64,000 nucleotides of DNA from Taurinivorans muris (GTDB taxonomy: Bacteria > Desulfobacterota > Desulfovibrionia > Desulfovibrionales > Desulfovibrionaceae), in the NCBI RefSeq assembly GCF_025232395.1, contig NZ_CP065938.1, forward strand, positions 1,798,001 through 1,862,000. Direction: 5' to 3'. Under the pieces are notes generated by a model that saw only the letters and a program-made list of their open reading frames with translations, had not been told where the DNA came from and did not search any database. The position numbers and the translations under genes are program-made. Of this stretch, positions 1-5,549 are shown one piece after another (within the stretch, counting starts at the first letter, position 1; each line of letters starts with the position of its first letter).

Positions 1-2163
1 GCCCCGCAATGTATTCTCCGTTTTGGGGCGACGTTTCCGGAAATTGAAGTCGGAACCGGCAAAAATAAGCAGAAAAAAATCGATTATAAAAATTTGGTCT
101 ATGATTTAAATGCGTTGTCTTCTTTTAATCAGCGTTTGGTCAAAGGGGTAAATATCCAATATCCAAGTTTAATAAAAGAGGAAAGCTCAATTTATAAAGT
201 TGTCGGGTTAACCAATACTGCATTGACATTAAAAAAGGATAATAAGGAATATCAAATAGAAAAGGGAGAATTGTTACCCGATGATTTCGGAGGCAATTTA
301 TACTATGTTGGAGGAAAAGAGAAACTTCTTTCCAACGGGTTGAATCTTGAAAGCAATATGCAGTTGGTTTCCGATGTTTTTCTGCAAAGTTATCAGGAAA
401 TATTATTGAAACAAGCTATTGATACGCATTTTAAAAAAGAAAAAGAAAACTGGGAAGAGAATATAAAAACCTTATCCTTATTTTTTATTGATGATATTAA
501 GAGTTACCGTAATAAAGAAAATGAGGGCTGGCTTAAACAAAAATTTGAAGAATTATTAAAACATAAACTTGAAGCGTTGATAAAAGAGGAAACGAACCAA
601 GAATATAAAGAATTTTTAAAAGAAAGTTTAAAAAATATCGGGCAAACCCATGCCGGCTATTTTGCGGAAGATACAGGAAAGGCTGATGAAGAAATTCAAA
701 AGCAGATTGACGATATTTTAAGAAATAAATCGGAAATGCTTTCTTTTAAAGATAAAAATAGTGCATGGGTTGTGCGAAGGTTTTTCTTTTCAAAATGGAC
801 ATTACGTGAGGGCTGGGATAATCCGAATATTTTTGTAATTACAAAATTACGGAAAAGCGGAAGTGAAATAAGCAAAATTCAGGAAGTCGGCAGGGGCTTG
901 CGTTTACCCGTGAATGCCAGCGGTAAAAGAATGTCAAACACGGATAAAGATTATTACTTAGATTTAATTATTGATTGGTCGGAAAAAGATTTTGCACAAA
1001 GTTTAAAAGAAGAAATTGTTAGTGATAATAAACAATTATATAAAAAAATAACCGATGAATTGTGCGATATTGTTTTGCACAAACAAGGGAAGGAATGTAC
1101 AGAAAAAAATAGGGACGAGCTTTTTATTTCTTTGCTGACTGAGAAAATTATTAACCGTGAGGGTGAGATTACAAATTTTGAAGAATTTGTAAAATATTTG
1201 CCTGAAGAATATGTTCTGAAAGAAAATATTATTACTGAAAATGGCAGAAAAAATTCTAAAGTAAAATTACGGAAAGAAAATTGGGAAAAAATTAGGGAAT
1301 TATGGAAACAAATTACAAAAAGATTTATGGTTGAGTATGACCAAATCCCTAATGAAGATTTAAAAAATATTTTAAAACATTCCTTAAAAAATAATGCTTT
1401 TCAATTAAATTCCGGAACTATTGTTCATAAAAAATTGGTTGTTGAAAATGGTATGCTCGTTATCAAGGAAACGACAGAAGATTTGAATTTTCCTGTGGGA
1501 ACCTTGCCTTATGGTGTGTTTTTACAAAAACTTTCAATGGTTACCAATATTCCTGTACATATAATTCATAAGGCAATGTCTGAATTATATCCTGATGGAG
1601 TGAATAAAGAGCAATTCAATATCAATTCTGTGAATAATATCAATGTTAATTTTGAAAAAGAATTTGCAGAATATTTTTCAACAAGATATGAATATAATTC
1701 TTTAGATTTTATTGCCGCAACCAGCCTTATGAAAGACGGTGTTTTCCTTGATGAAATAGAGCAAAATTTATTGGGTCTAAAGGAAGATAAAACCTTTGAG
1801 GTTGAGAAAAATTATTTGTATGACAAAAAAGTTTTTGACAGTGGCATAGAGCAGGATATTTTGAAGGAAGCCCCGCAGAAAGAAGTTCTTGTTTTTGGAA
1901 AACTTCCAAGACGTAGTGTAAAAGTTCCTCTTTATACCGGCGGAACAACAAGTCCTGATTTTGTTTATGCCATAAAAAATAATAAACAGGTGCAAGTTGG
2001 TTTAATTGTCGAAGCAAAATCAGATAATTTGCGGGAAAAAGAAATATCTGCCATAAATGCCCAAGAAAAATATTTTAAACAATTTGATAAAATAAAATGG
2101 AAAAAAGTGACTTCTGTAAATGAATTTCGTAATTGCTTGAAAAGTTTGATTAAAGAGGAATAA
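1..2163 (+). CDS. Type III restriction endonuclease subunit (Res), 3' part only
   Basis: The reading frame is open from the first base of the window, so the N-terminus, including Walker A and the DEAD box, lies outside; about 720 codons remain. The motif REGWDNPN followed by QEVGRGLRLPVN matches helicase motifs V and VI of type III Res proteins. Near the C-terminus, SPDFVYAI, a spacer and IVEAKS form the PD-(D/E)XK nuclease core, so both translocase and nuclease domains are represented. Res works with a Mod methyltransferase, presumably encoded to the left. No frameshift is visible. An ATG at 94 is internal to the protein and is not taken as the start. Confidence 0.85.
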   Translation, partial: APQCILRFGATFPEIEVGTGKNKQKKIDYKNLVYDLNALSSFNQRLVKGVNIQYPSLIKEESSIYKVVGLTNTALTLKKDNKEYQIEKGELLPDDFGGNLYYVGGKEKLLSNGLNLESNMQLVSDVFLQSYQEILLKQAIDTHFKKEKENWEENIKTLSLFFIDDIKSYRNKENEGWLKQKFEELLKHKLEALIKEETNQEYKEFLKESLKNIGQTHAGYFAEDTGKADEEIQKQIDDILRNKSEMLSFKDKNSAWVVRRFFFSKWTLREGWDNPNIFVITKLRKSGSEISKIQEVGRGLRLPVNASGKRMSNTDKDYYLDLIIDWSEKDFAQSLKEEIVSDNKQLYKKITDELCDIVLHKQGKECTEKNRDELFISLLTEKIINREGEITNFEEFVKYLPEEYVLKENIITENGRKNSKVKLRKENWEKIRELWKQITKRFMVEYDQIPNEDLKNILKHSLKNNAFQLNSGTIVHKKLVVENGMLVIKETTEDLNFPVGTLPYGVFLQKLSMVTNIPVHIIHKAMSELYPDGVNKEQFNINSVNNINVNFEKEFAEYFSTRYEYNSLDFIAATSLMKDGVFLDEIEQNLLGLKEDKTFEVEKNYLYDKKVFDSGIEQDILKEAPQKEVLVFGKLPRRSVKVPLYTGGTTSPDFVYAIKNNKQVQVGLIVEAKSDNLREKEISAINAQEKYFKQFDKIKWKKVTSVNEFRNCLKSLIKEE

Positions 2164-2226: not shown

Positions 2227-2245
2227 CTGTATAAAATTTATACAG
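2227..2245. promoter_or_regulatory. 19-bp perfect palindrome, candidate enhancer (UAS)
   Basis: CTGTATAAAATTTATACAG has 9-bp perfect arms around one central base. It lies about 115 bp upstream of the -24/-12 promoter at 2360, the usual distance for a dimeric sigma-54 activator site. The cognate activator is unknown. Confidence 0.5.
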
Positions 2246-2359
2246 AAAGGCGGAAAAACTGTGCAAAGATTGTATAGGCGGCAGGGGCTGTGAGATGAGT
2301 TTGTAAAAAATATATTTTTATTTTATTGAATTTATTATATTTTAATTTTTACGTATGTT

Positions 2360-2375
2360 TGGCACGGTCCTTGCT
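2360..2375 (+). promoter_or_regulatory. Sigma-54 (RpoN) -24/-12 promoter
   Basis: TGGCACGGTCCTTGCT, preceded by T, matches the sigma-54 consensus YTGGCACGN4TTGCW at every defined position with correct GG-N10-GC spacing. Transcription would begin near 2386. The next gene, uvrA, starts at 2607, behind an intrinsic terminator. Confidence 0.85.
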
Positions 2376-2385
2376 GATAAACAGG

Positions 2386-2536
2386 TATCATATCAAAGTT
2401 CTGATTTGATATGTTTACATAGCTTATAAAGCAAGGGGAGTTCGGAACCCCTATAAAAACACCGTTTATATAAAACTCTCCTTTAAACTGCCTCCTTTTT
2501 TAGCCCTTTATTCCCCAAGATAAGGGGCTTTTTTCG
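2386..2536 (+). ncRNA. Putative sigma-54-dependent small RNA, about 150 nt
   Basis: The stretch lies between a consensus sigma-54 promoter (2360-2375) and a terminator-like structure ending at 2536, and has no reading frame longer than a few codons. The expected 5' end falls just before a hairpin at 2389-2413 (9-bp arms CATATCAAA/TTTGATATG). A second hairpin is at 2434-2452 (AGGGG/CCCCT with an inner GTT/AAC). The segment between it and the terminator is pyrimidine-rich, with CTCTCC and GCCTCC, which could pair with Shine-Dalgarno sequences; this suggests, as inference, a trans-acting translational regulator. It could instead be an untranslated leader of uvrA if the terminator is leaky. Confidence 0.6.
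2502..2536 (+). terminator. Intrinsic terminator of the putative sRNA
   Basis: AGCCC and GGGGCT pair around a loop containing CCCCAAGATAAGGGG and are followed by six T residues. Confidence 0.65.
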
Positions 2537-2606: not shown

Positions 2607-5549
2607 ATGTCAGAAAAGAAAAACAAGATAAAGCAAAATACGGAGCAAAACGGTGCGATCATTGTCGAAGGGGCAAGACAGCACAATTTGAAAAATATCA
2701 ATGTGCGTATTCCGCGCAATGAACTTGTGGTTGTGTGCGGTCCTTCCGGGTCCGGCAAATCGACCCTTGCTTTTGATATTGTTTACGCAGAGGGGCAAAG
2801 GCGCTATGTGGAGTCTTTGTCCGCCTATGCCCGCCAGTTTTTGCCTAAAATGGATAAGCCCTTGGTGGATAAAATCGAGGGGCTTTCTCCCGCCATAAGT
2901 CTTGAGCAGCAGACCACGGGGCGAAATCCGCGCTCGACTGTGGGCACGGTGACGGAAGTGTATGATTTTTTAAGGGTGTTTTTCGCGCGGCTCGGTTCGA
3001 TGTATTGTGTGAAGTGCGGTACTCCCATTGAAGCCCGCGCCTCTGATGAAATCATTGCCGACATCATGGATTTGCCGCAAGGGTCACGGCTTGTTTTGCT
3101 TGCGCCGCTTGTGGAAATGCAAAAAGGCACGCATCAGGACAGGTTTAAAAAATTGAAAGCTGACGGTTTTGTGCGGGTGCGGGTGGCGACTCTTGGTGAA
3201 GAAAAGAAAATTTACACCCTCGATGAAGCACCTGAATTGGATAAGAATAAAAAGCACAGTATCGATTTGGTCATTGACAGGCTGGTTATCAAGGAAGACA
3301 TGCGCACCCGTCTGGCTGATTCTGTGGAATTGGCTCTCAAATACGGTGAGGGGCGTATCATTGTGTCCTGCGAGGGCAGGGAAGACGTCGTCCATTCGAC
3401 AGACAGCGTTTGCCCTAAATGCCATACGACAATGCCGGTTCCCTCTCCGCAGCTTTTTTCGTTCAACAGCCCGCAGGGGGCTTGCCCGCAGTGCGCAGGC
3501 ATAGGCACTGTGGCGACGTTCGATTCCCAACTTATCGCGCCGGATGAAAGCCTGTCCCTTGCCGAGGGGGCATTGGCGCCGTTTTCCAGCCCGTATACAT
3601 GGAAACAAATAGAAAAACCTCTTGCGGAACTGGGCAGGCGGCATGGTTTCACGTTGAATATGCCTTTGAAAGATTTCAGCGAAGAAGCCAAAAAAGCCCT
3701 TTTTCATGGCGAAGCGGGGGGCGTGAACAGAACAGGAAGCCTGCGCCGGAATTTCATGGGCGGAACAAGCCTCAATCGGGCGCTGGACGAAAGCGCAAGC
3801 GGTAATGCCCACTGGTCCGGGGTGATGTATTTGCTGGAACGTTTCATGGCGCATGGCGATGCATGGAGTGAAATTTTGTCGAAATACAGCTATGCGGTGG
3901 ACTGTCCGCAGTGCAGGGGGGCAAGGCTGCGTCCGGAAGCGCTTTGCGTGAAAGTGGGCAAAGCCCATGTTAAAAATCCGGCGGCAGAATATAATATTTA
4001 CGAATTTTGCAGTCTTTCCATTGCAAAGGCTTTGGCTTGGCTTGAAAGTTTGGAATTTACCGGCAGGCATGCGATCATTGCCGAACCTTTATTGAAGGAA
4101 TTGACGCACCGTCTTTCTTTCATGCTCAATGTGGGGCTTGATTATCTTTCCCTCGCCCGTTCCATGATAACCCTTTCCGGCGGGGAGTCCCAGCGCATAC
4201 GTCTTGCTTCCCAGCTCGGTTCCGGTTTGGTCGGGGTGACCTATGTTTTGGATGAACCGTCCATCGGTCTGCACCCCCGTGACAACGAGCGGCTTATTCA
4301 AACGCTGCGAAGCCTGCAAAACAGAGGCAATACGGTTTTGGTTGTGGAGCATGACGAAGCGACTATCCGCGAGGCGGATACCATTTTGGAACTGGGACCT
4401 GCTTCGGGGGCGAACGGCGGAGAACTTGTTTTTGCGGGAACTGTGCAGGAATTGTATAAAAATGCGCATTCGCTCACGGCAAAATATTTGCGCGGGGATA
4501 TGAAAGTCCCTCTTCCCGATGAACGGCGCGAGCCCAAAGAGTTTTTAACCTTGAAAGGCGTGACGACCAACAATATCAAAAACATCGACTGCGCCATTCC
4601 TTTAGGTTTGCTTACGTGTGTGACGGGCGTTTCCGGATCCGGCAAAAGCTCCCTTGTGATTGATACGCTGTATAAGCATATAGCCATGCACTGCGGGATA
4701 AAGGTCGATCAGCCGGGGGAAGTGAAGAGGATTGTCAATATCGATAAAATCGAACGTGTCGTGTCCATTGACCAAAGCCCTATCGGCAGGACGCCCCGTT
4801 CCAATCCTGCAACCTATACGAAGATTTTTGATGAGATACGCAATATTTTCGCCATGACGCAGGACGCGAAACGGCGCGGGTACAAGGCGGGACGGTTCAG
4901 TTTCAACGTTGCGGGCGGGCGCTGTGAAACGTGCAAAGGCGACGGACAGATCCGTGTCGAAATGCACTTTTTGCCTGATATTTTTGTGCAGTGCGATGTT
5001 TGCAAAGGTCAGCGTTTTAATCGGGAAACGCTGGAAGTCCACTATAAGGATAAGAATATCGCCGAAGTGTTGGATATGACGGTAAGCGAAGCAAGGCAGT
5101 TTTTTGAAAATTATCCTTCTCTGGAAAGGCGGCTTGCCATGCTTGAAAGCGTGGGACTCGGTTATATCCGTTTAGGGCAGCCGGCAACGACGCTTTCAGG
5201 CGGAGAAGCGCAAAGGATAAAAATCTCCCGCGAGCTTGGCAAGCGTTCTTTGCCGAATACCGTATATATTCTGGATGAACCGACAACGGGGCTGCACATG
5301 CACGAAGTGGGCAAACTGGTGACGGTTTTGCACCAGCTGGTGGAGCGCGGGGCGAGCGTTGTCGTTATCGAGCATAACACGGATGTGATTTTGGCTTCCG
5401 ATTATGTTATCGACATCGGTCCCGGAGGCGGCGAAAATGGCGGAACCATTATTTCGGAGGGCACGCCGGAGGCTATTATGGCGGACCCTGCTTCCGTGAC
5501 AGGAAAATTCCTGGTAGAGGAACGGCGTATGCGCCGGAAATTTTCATAG
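2607..5549 (+). CDS. uvrA: Excinuclease ABC subunit A
   Basis: This is the damage-recognition ATPase of nucleotide excision repair, which loads UvrB on DNA lesions in the cytoplasm. At 980 residues it has two tandem ABC ATPase halves with Walker A motifs GPSGSGKST near residue 45 and GVSGSGKSS in the second half. Both LSGGE signatures are present, as are zinc-binding CxxC pairs (CVKC, CPKC/CPQC, CETC/CDVC). The length is slightly above the E. coli protein (940). The start at 2607 follows AAAGGAAACAAT. The gene sits alone behind the sRNA locus, and gmhB follows after 9 bases. No LexA-like box was recognised upstream. Confidence 0.97.
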   Translation: MSEKKNKIKQNTEQNGAIIVEGARQHNLKNINVRIPRNELVVVCGPSGSGKSTLAFDIVYAEGQRRYVESLSAYARQFLPKMDKPLVDKIEGLSPAISLEQQTTGRNPRSTVGTVTEVYDFLRVFFARLGSMYCVKCGTPIEARASDEIIADIMDLPQGSRLVLLAPLVEMQKGTHQDRFKKLKADGFVRVRVATLGEEKKIYTLDEAPELDKNKKHSIDLVIDRLVIKEDMRTRLADSVELALKYGEGRIIVSCEGREDVVHSTDSVCPKCHTTMPVPSPQLFSFNSPQGACPQCAGIGTVATFDSQLIAPDESLSLAEGALAPFSSPYTWKQIEKPLAELGRRHGFTLNMPLKDFSEEAKKALFHGEAGGVNRTGSLRRNFMGGTSLNRALDESASGNAHWSGVMYLLERFMAHGDAWSEILSKYSYAVDCPQCRGARLRPEALCVKVGKAHVKNPAAEYNIYEFCSLSIAKALAWLESLEFTGRHAIIAEPLLKELTHRLSFMLNVGLDYLSLARSMITLSGGESQRIRLASQLGSGLVGVTYVLDEPSIGLHPRDNERLIQTLRSLQNRGNTVLVVEHDEATIREADTILELGPASGANGGELVFAGTVQELYKNAHSLTAKYLRGDMKVPLPDERREPKEFLTLKGVTTNNIKNIDCAIPLGLLTCVTGVSGSGKSSLVIDTLYKHIAMHCGIKVDQPGEVKRIVNIDKIERVVSIDQSPIGRTPRSNPATYTKIFDEIRNIFAMTQDAKRRGYKAGRFSFNVAGGRCETCKGDGQIRVEMHFLPDIFVQCDVCKGQRFNRETLEVHYKDKNIAEVLDMTVSEARQFFENYPSLERRLAMLESVGLGYIRLGQPATTLSGGEAQRIKISRELGKRSLPNTVYILDEPTTGLHMHEVGKLVTVLHQLVERGASVVVIEHNTDVILASDYVIDIGPGGGENGGTIISEGTPEAIMADPASVTGKFLVEERRMRRKFS

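Follow-up and report, generated by a model that had tools for sequence, protein, structure and literature searches.

Genomic context

The region described here belongs to a window of 64,000 nucleotides (the whole stretch of DNA that was analysed, to which positions without a prefix refer) from Taurinivorans muris, whose genome consists of one contig of 2.17 Mb. It contains a candidate small RNA gene, sRNA1, preceded by rpoN, then a D-Ala-D-Ala carboxypeptidase gene (dacA) and then the sodium:alanine symporter gene agcS, an order found in T. muris and in three other species of the genus (genomes G001, G002 and G004). On the 3' side sRNA1 is followed by uvrA in T. muris, G001 and G002, but by the gene for an SLC13-type transporter in G004. 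Between agcS and sRNA1, T. muris carries a type III restriction-modification pair (mod, res; window 1-2163, L041:14600-19163); this insert is absent from that place in the relatives that were read. The rpoN-dacA-agcS synteny has been kept despite this insertion in T. muris and the loss of the adjacent uvrA in G004. A strongly conserved sigma-54-like element, TATGGCATAAGAAATGCAT, occurs shortly 5' of the rpoN start in four species (L041:10344-10391 and the equivalent place in L043, L044 and L045), which suggests that rpoN may be autoregulated. The coordinates of the features are collected in Table 1.

Table 1. Features of the sRNA1 locus of T. muris and position of the second RNA, sRNA2.
Feature	Position	Strand	Description and basis
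UAS1	2227-2245		Perfect 19-bp palindrome CTGTATAAAATTTATACAG, TGT-N11-ACA; putative enhancer-binding-protein site
UAS2	2259-2277		Second, weaker pair of half-sites, CTGTGCAAAGATTGTATAG, at a distance of three helical turns (32 bp) from UAS1
-24/-12 sigma-54 promoter	2358-2376	+	TTTGGCACGGTCCTTGCTG; exact consensus
sRNA1 transcript	2386-2536	+	5' end inferred about 12 nt after the -12 element, 3' end inferred at the terminator
5' hairpin	2389-2413	+	9-bp stem and 7-nt loop; predicted fold, covariation
Second hairpin	2434-2452	+	AGGGG...CCCCU; predicted fold
Conserved CU-rich core	2456-2501	+	CUCUCC at 2476-2481, ACUGCCUCC at 2487-2495; presumed mRNA-pairing segment
Intrinsic terminator	2502-2535	+	11-bp stem (2502-2529) and T6; found by terminator scan
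uvrA	2607-5549	+	Downstream neighbor, outside the sRNA unit; Pfam UvrA domains
sRNA2	C1:1896771-1896872; with control module C1:1896644-1896872 (L186:14844-15072)		Outside the window; found by synteny, between ffh and a SEC-C gene

The Promoter and Its Putative Tandem Activator Site

A preliminary description of this DNA, made from the letters alone, had proposed a sigma-54-dependent small RNA with a fully consensus -24/-12 promoter. The element in question, TGGCACGGTCCTTGCT at 2360-2375, is an exact match and the only one within the 64-kb window; the exact consensus occurs twice in the 2.17-Mb genome, and a reversed control pattern once. The promoter, with its conserved GG-N10-GC arrangement, lies directly 5' of the RNA, and 13 of its 19 bases are invariant in the four aligned species (T. 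muris, G001, G002 and G004) versus 9 of 80 in the preceding spacer.

Two further sites of this type were observed. The only other exact TGGCACGNNNNTTGCW of the genome (C1:1394375; L003:1501-1516) is located before an MFS-like transporter gene, divergent from the gene for a 997-aa sigma-54 activator-like protein. A good sigma-54 promoter, TTTTGGCACTCAATATGCTAT, is found immediately 5' of an apparent fliJ (L037:1160-1182), as expected for flagellar genes.

The palindrome that had been taken as the enhancer of the RNA (UAS1) is perfect over its 19 bp. The 64-kb window has just one other perfect palindrome with 9-bp arms, and the probability of finding such a palindrome by chance in 310 nt of local composition is about 0.01. 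UAS1 is conserved in the alignment (G001, G002, G004) as well as in the orthologue of a fifth species (G003, described below). As an account of the control region it was incomplete, since the palindrome is only the first member of a putative tandem activator site. UAS1 and the second site, UAS2, are offset by exactly 32 bp in every one of the five sRNA1 orthologues and by 31-32 bp at the second RNA, sRNA2; conservation of UAS2 in the four-species alignment is lower (42-47%), its first half excepted. The distance from UAS1 to the -24 element is 124-138 bp at sRNA1 in the five species and 101-138 bp across all eight loci, and a putative enhancer-binding-protein site is therefore present in the interval 80-200 bp upstream of sRNA1. 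The phased pair would fit two activator dimers bound on the same face of the helix. In Desulfovibrio, the motifs of enhancer-binding proteins contain TGT-ACA half-sites separated by 9, 11 or 12 bp in three groups (PMC4641369). None of the near-palindromes found in T. muris, whether at aroQ/ysxC, within coding genes or elsewhere, is accompanied by a fitting promoter.

Predicted Transcript and Its Conservation

The two hairpins and the terminator that had been proposed to follow the start point are all present, the terminator being a strong one, and the 152 nt located 3' of the promoter fold with a predicted energy of -36.7 kcal/mol (z -3.5), none of 200 shuffled sequences being equally stable. 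The 5' arm of the second hairpin may alternatively pair with CUCUCC (2476-2481). No open reading frame of at least 30 aa exists on the + strand within 2386-2536, as the preliminary description had stated. Both pyrimidine-rich segments pointed out in the DNA, CTCTCC at 2476-2481 and GCCTCC at 2490-2495, are found; in the predicted T. muris fold CUCUCC forms pairs with AAGGGGAG, and consequently only the CUGCCUCC segment, with an unpaired probability of at least 0.88, is reliably exposed.

In a DNA search of 99 related genomes strong matches were limited to three congeneric species, those of the two closest starting at the promoter. A separate BLAST match, at C1:1162133, is AT-rich. The alignment of the four species shows a pattern of islands, with an identity of 65-84% for UAS1, promoter, core and terminator and of 0-54% for the spacers; within the CU-rich core 35 of 46 positions are invariant. 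In the 5' hairpin both bases differ between species in five of the nine pairs, without loss of pairing (100% of cells paired). Over the whole structure seven pairs are double-changed, compared with 2.3 in shuffled alignments, none of 500 of which reaches seven, and 98% of cells are paired; sliding the structure along the alignment abolishes the covariation signal. Promoter and hairpins are thus kept in relatives, the lack of which had been named as grounds for abandoning the proposal.

The covariance search that had been suggested was carried out with a model of sRNA1 (R1) in 288 genomes of the family, and matches with E <1e-22 came from the four species alone, T. muris being represented by two genomes. 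Weak R1 matches elsewhere (L051-L060) were discarded because no sigma-54 promoter precedes them. A pattern scan of GTDB contigs yielded four loci, all congeneric, one of them on a contig of the metagenome-assembled genome UBA8003, which has been assigned to Taurinivorans muris (PMC10507020). At the gathering threshold, sRNA1 matches no Rfam family (Qrr, CrcZ, GlmZ and 6S included) and the same is true of sRNA2 and the G003 loci, which bears out the earlier impression that the sequence resembles no recognised regulatory RNA.

As a separate observation, several members of the genus have related inverted elements rich in G (GGGGGAAATCATTTCCCCC-like), which recur at intergenic sites unrelated to one another (L057, L060 and L051 near 1501; downstream of agcS in L146).

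A Second RNA With the Same Control Module

The genus was also scanned for the palindrome alone, keeping those sites that have a sigma-54 promoter within 450 bp. This search uncovered new loci in G001, G002 and G003, with the promoter at 101-124 bp. In G003 sRNA1 is absent beside agcS, and a diverged orthologue with the same enhancer and promoter is located elsewhere (C7, L173:1501-1803), adjoining a gene of the HU/IHF type. Its predicted RNA shares the hairpin with a stem of 9 bp and a loop of 7 nt, contains an ACCG-UUAUAUA stretch and matches R1 better than any other of the sequences searched (E 0.013). It does not contain the CCUCC motif, so the pairing segment may differ in this species.

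At the new loci of G001 and G002 the module precedes a predicted RNA, sRNA2, some 100 nt long and flanked by ffh and a SEC-C gene; T. muris has a counterpart at the syntenic position (Table 1). sRNA2 has the same tandem activator sites, UAS1 being nearly identical in sequence at sRNA1 and sRNA2. The sRNA2 core is nearly invariant in the three species, and CU-rich single-stranded segments and a terminator are predicted. When about 0.4 Mb of the T. muris genome and the loci of its relatives were scanned, the composite module with promoter was found only at the sRNA1 and sRNA2 RNAs; the scoring matrix was trained on these very sites, and hence the absence of others is independent evidence while the scores of the training sites are not.

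Candidate Activators, Hfq and Targets

Fifteen T. muris genes encode a full sigma-54 activator domain, and at least seven of them have clear orthologues in most or all of the genus members examined; these conserved genes are candidates for the activator of sRNA1 and sRNA2. None of those whose neighborhood was read adjoins either RNA, and in an NCBIfam scan of four T. muris activators none reached the cut-off of any named family, GlrR included. Hfq (PF17209) was found in the E. coli and B. subtilis controls and was not detected in the T. muris genome; the encoded Hfq that accompanies Hfq-dependent trans-acting small RNAs was accordingly not found in this genome.

Searches for mRNA targets gave no discriminating or conserved gene. 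Seed AAGGAGGCAGTT matches a ribosome-binding site in place only at single genes, serS in G001 and one of 267 codons in T. muris, and these are not conserved; matches to the extended seed at such sites are few, none being common to different species. Duplex energies over 287 ranked start regions were no better than those of shuffled seeds, and an apparent pairing of sRNA2 with the rpoN start, strong in T. muris, is unconserved.

Proposed Function and Alternative Explanations

A sigma-54-dependent small RNA gene is supported by the conserved islands, the covarying 5' hairpin and the persistence of the module in G004 without uvrA. The explanation that we regard as probable is that of a stand-alone sRNA1 gene of about 150 nt which shares its activator with sRNA2 and acts in trans on Shine-Dalgarno regions without Hfq. 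According to this proposal, an enhancer-binding protein would bind the tandem TGT-N11-ACA sites at 2227-2277 and turn on the sigma-54 RNA polymerase at the -24/-12 promoter, so that sRNA1 would be transcribed from near 2386 to the terminator at 2535; the same activator would drive sRNA2 between ffh and the SEC-C gene. The exposed CU-rich segments would then pair in trans with Shine-Dalgarno regions and lower the translation of mRNAs, Hfq taking no part. The promoter, the tandem site, the folded RNA, the terminator, their conservation and the control module common to two RNAs can be read from the genomes, and from them we infer transcription, one common activator and an action on mRNAs. As the CU-rich core varies least among the single-stranded parts, with CUGCCUCC exposed, Shine-Dalgarno pairing appears as the likeliest mode of action of sRNA1 on the predicted fold. 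The full combination (one dedicated enhancer-binding protein, a tandem enhancer with 32-bp phasing and two unrelated CU-rich RNAs, one of them near rpoN, that jointly repress many mRNAs free of Hfq) is proposed tentatively, its chances being somewhat below even.

The alternative that survives best, although unlikely, is that sRNA1 and sRNA2 both depend on sigma-54 and respond to different activators which prefer TGT-N11-ACA alike, given that TGT-ACA half-site motifs with a spacing of 9-12 bp are common to several enhancer-binding proteins of Desulfovibrio (PMC4641369). However, both RNAs have the two-site arrangement at 31-32 bp with nearly the same UAS1, and nothing else in the scanned stretches has it, which favors a common activator.

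It is improbable that sRNA1 titrates a protein of the CsrA/RsmE type instead of pairing with mRNAs. A GGA motif does occur in the loop region of its second hairpin, and several sigma-54 RNAs of other bacteria act by titration, CrcZ among them; yet this loop has lost the GGA in G004, the inferred sRNA2 transcript has none, and it is the CU-rich single-stranded core and not the GGA loop that is most conserved.

A still smaller likelihood is assigned to the promoter and hairpins belonging to uvrA as its regulated leader, of an attenuator or riboswitch-like type. This gene starts 70 nt past the terminator on the same strand in T. muris, and G001 and G002 are arranged alike, but in G004 the whole module stays by agcS in front of the SLC13-type transporter gene, and the G003 orthologue is found at another locus. 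Since the module does not depend on uvrA in these two species, the leader was rejected; in addition, the interval from terminator to uvrA is poorly conserved (8 of 71 positions invariant in the four species). A dual-function RNA encoding a small protein was rejected as highly improbable for want of a conserved frame: similar frames of 31-38 codons run across sRNA1 in G001 and G002, but T. muris has only ATG-TTT-ACA-TAG at that place, the 11-codon frame of G004 is unrelated, and indels shift the frame between species.

Relationship to Known Small RNAs and Significance

The stand-alone small RNA gene favored here has counterparts in the same family. In D. vulgaris four sigma-54-dependent RNAs have been described, Dv_sRNA2 under the control of DVU0679 and the others under DVU0653, DVU1419 and DVU2359 (PMC3333781, PMC4641369); Dv_sRNA2 was detected on tiling arrays, and none of the four has a known function (PMC3333781, PMC4641369). 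Both organisms belong to the Desulfovibrionaceae, and the D. vulgaris RNAs resemble sRNA1 in being intergenic and having a sigma-54 promoter and an enhancer-binding-protein site, putative in the case of sRNA1. They are located near DVU0653, DVU0679, DVU3282 or DVU2357, two of them directly 3' of their activator gene, whereas sRNA1 lies near rpoN/agcS with no activator gene adjoining. sRNA1 and Dv_sRNA2 are set apart by description, and R1 has no strong match outside the genus in the 288 family genomes.

More distant parallels exist in other bacteria. The enterobacterial GlmY and GlmZ, which are sibling RNAs, are under the sigma-54 response regulator GlrR/QseF bound at upstream activating sequences, similar to what is proposed for sRNA1; sRNA1 has no sequence or Rfam match to these RNAs, and the four T. 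muris activators scanned fall below the GlrR cut-off. The Qrr RNAs of Vibrio are sibling small RNAs activated by LuxO and sigma-54, with base-pairing segments and terminators, and they need Hfq. sRNA1 and sRNA2 share with them the design of siblings with sigma-54 promoters, presumed CU-rich pairing segments and terminators, and differ in that Hfq was not detected in T. muris and no Rfam family is matched. In RepG of Helicobacter pylori, a bacterium without Hfq, the CU-rich pairing segment is the terminator loop and expression is not sigma-54 driven. Compared by description and not by sequence, sRNA1 is like RepG in its presumed CU-rich pairing segment and in that Hfq was not found, and unlike it in its sigma-54 promoter and in the location of the presumed pairing segment outside the terminator loop.

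Since sigma-54 small RNAs are already known, Desulfovibrio included, sRNA1 and sRNA2 are further members and not a new kind. They belong to no Rfam family, and the module shared by the two RNAs suggests a regulatory circuit, small and so far undescribed, of a generally known kind. To our knowledge, post-transcriptional control has been little studied in the Desulfovibrionaceae. T. muris is a culturable bacterium of the mouse gut that respires taurine and forms H2S from it. The putative circuit is clearly bounded, with two RNAs, one shared enhancer module and an activator to be sought among some fifteen genes, and it would also reveal how CU-rich small RNAs work without Hfq.
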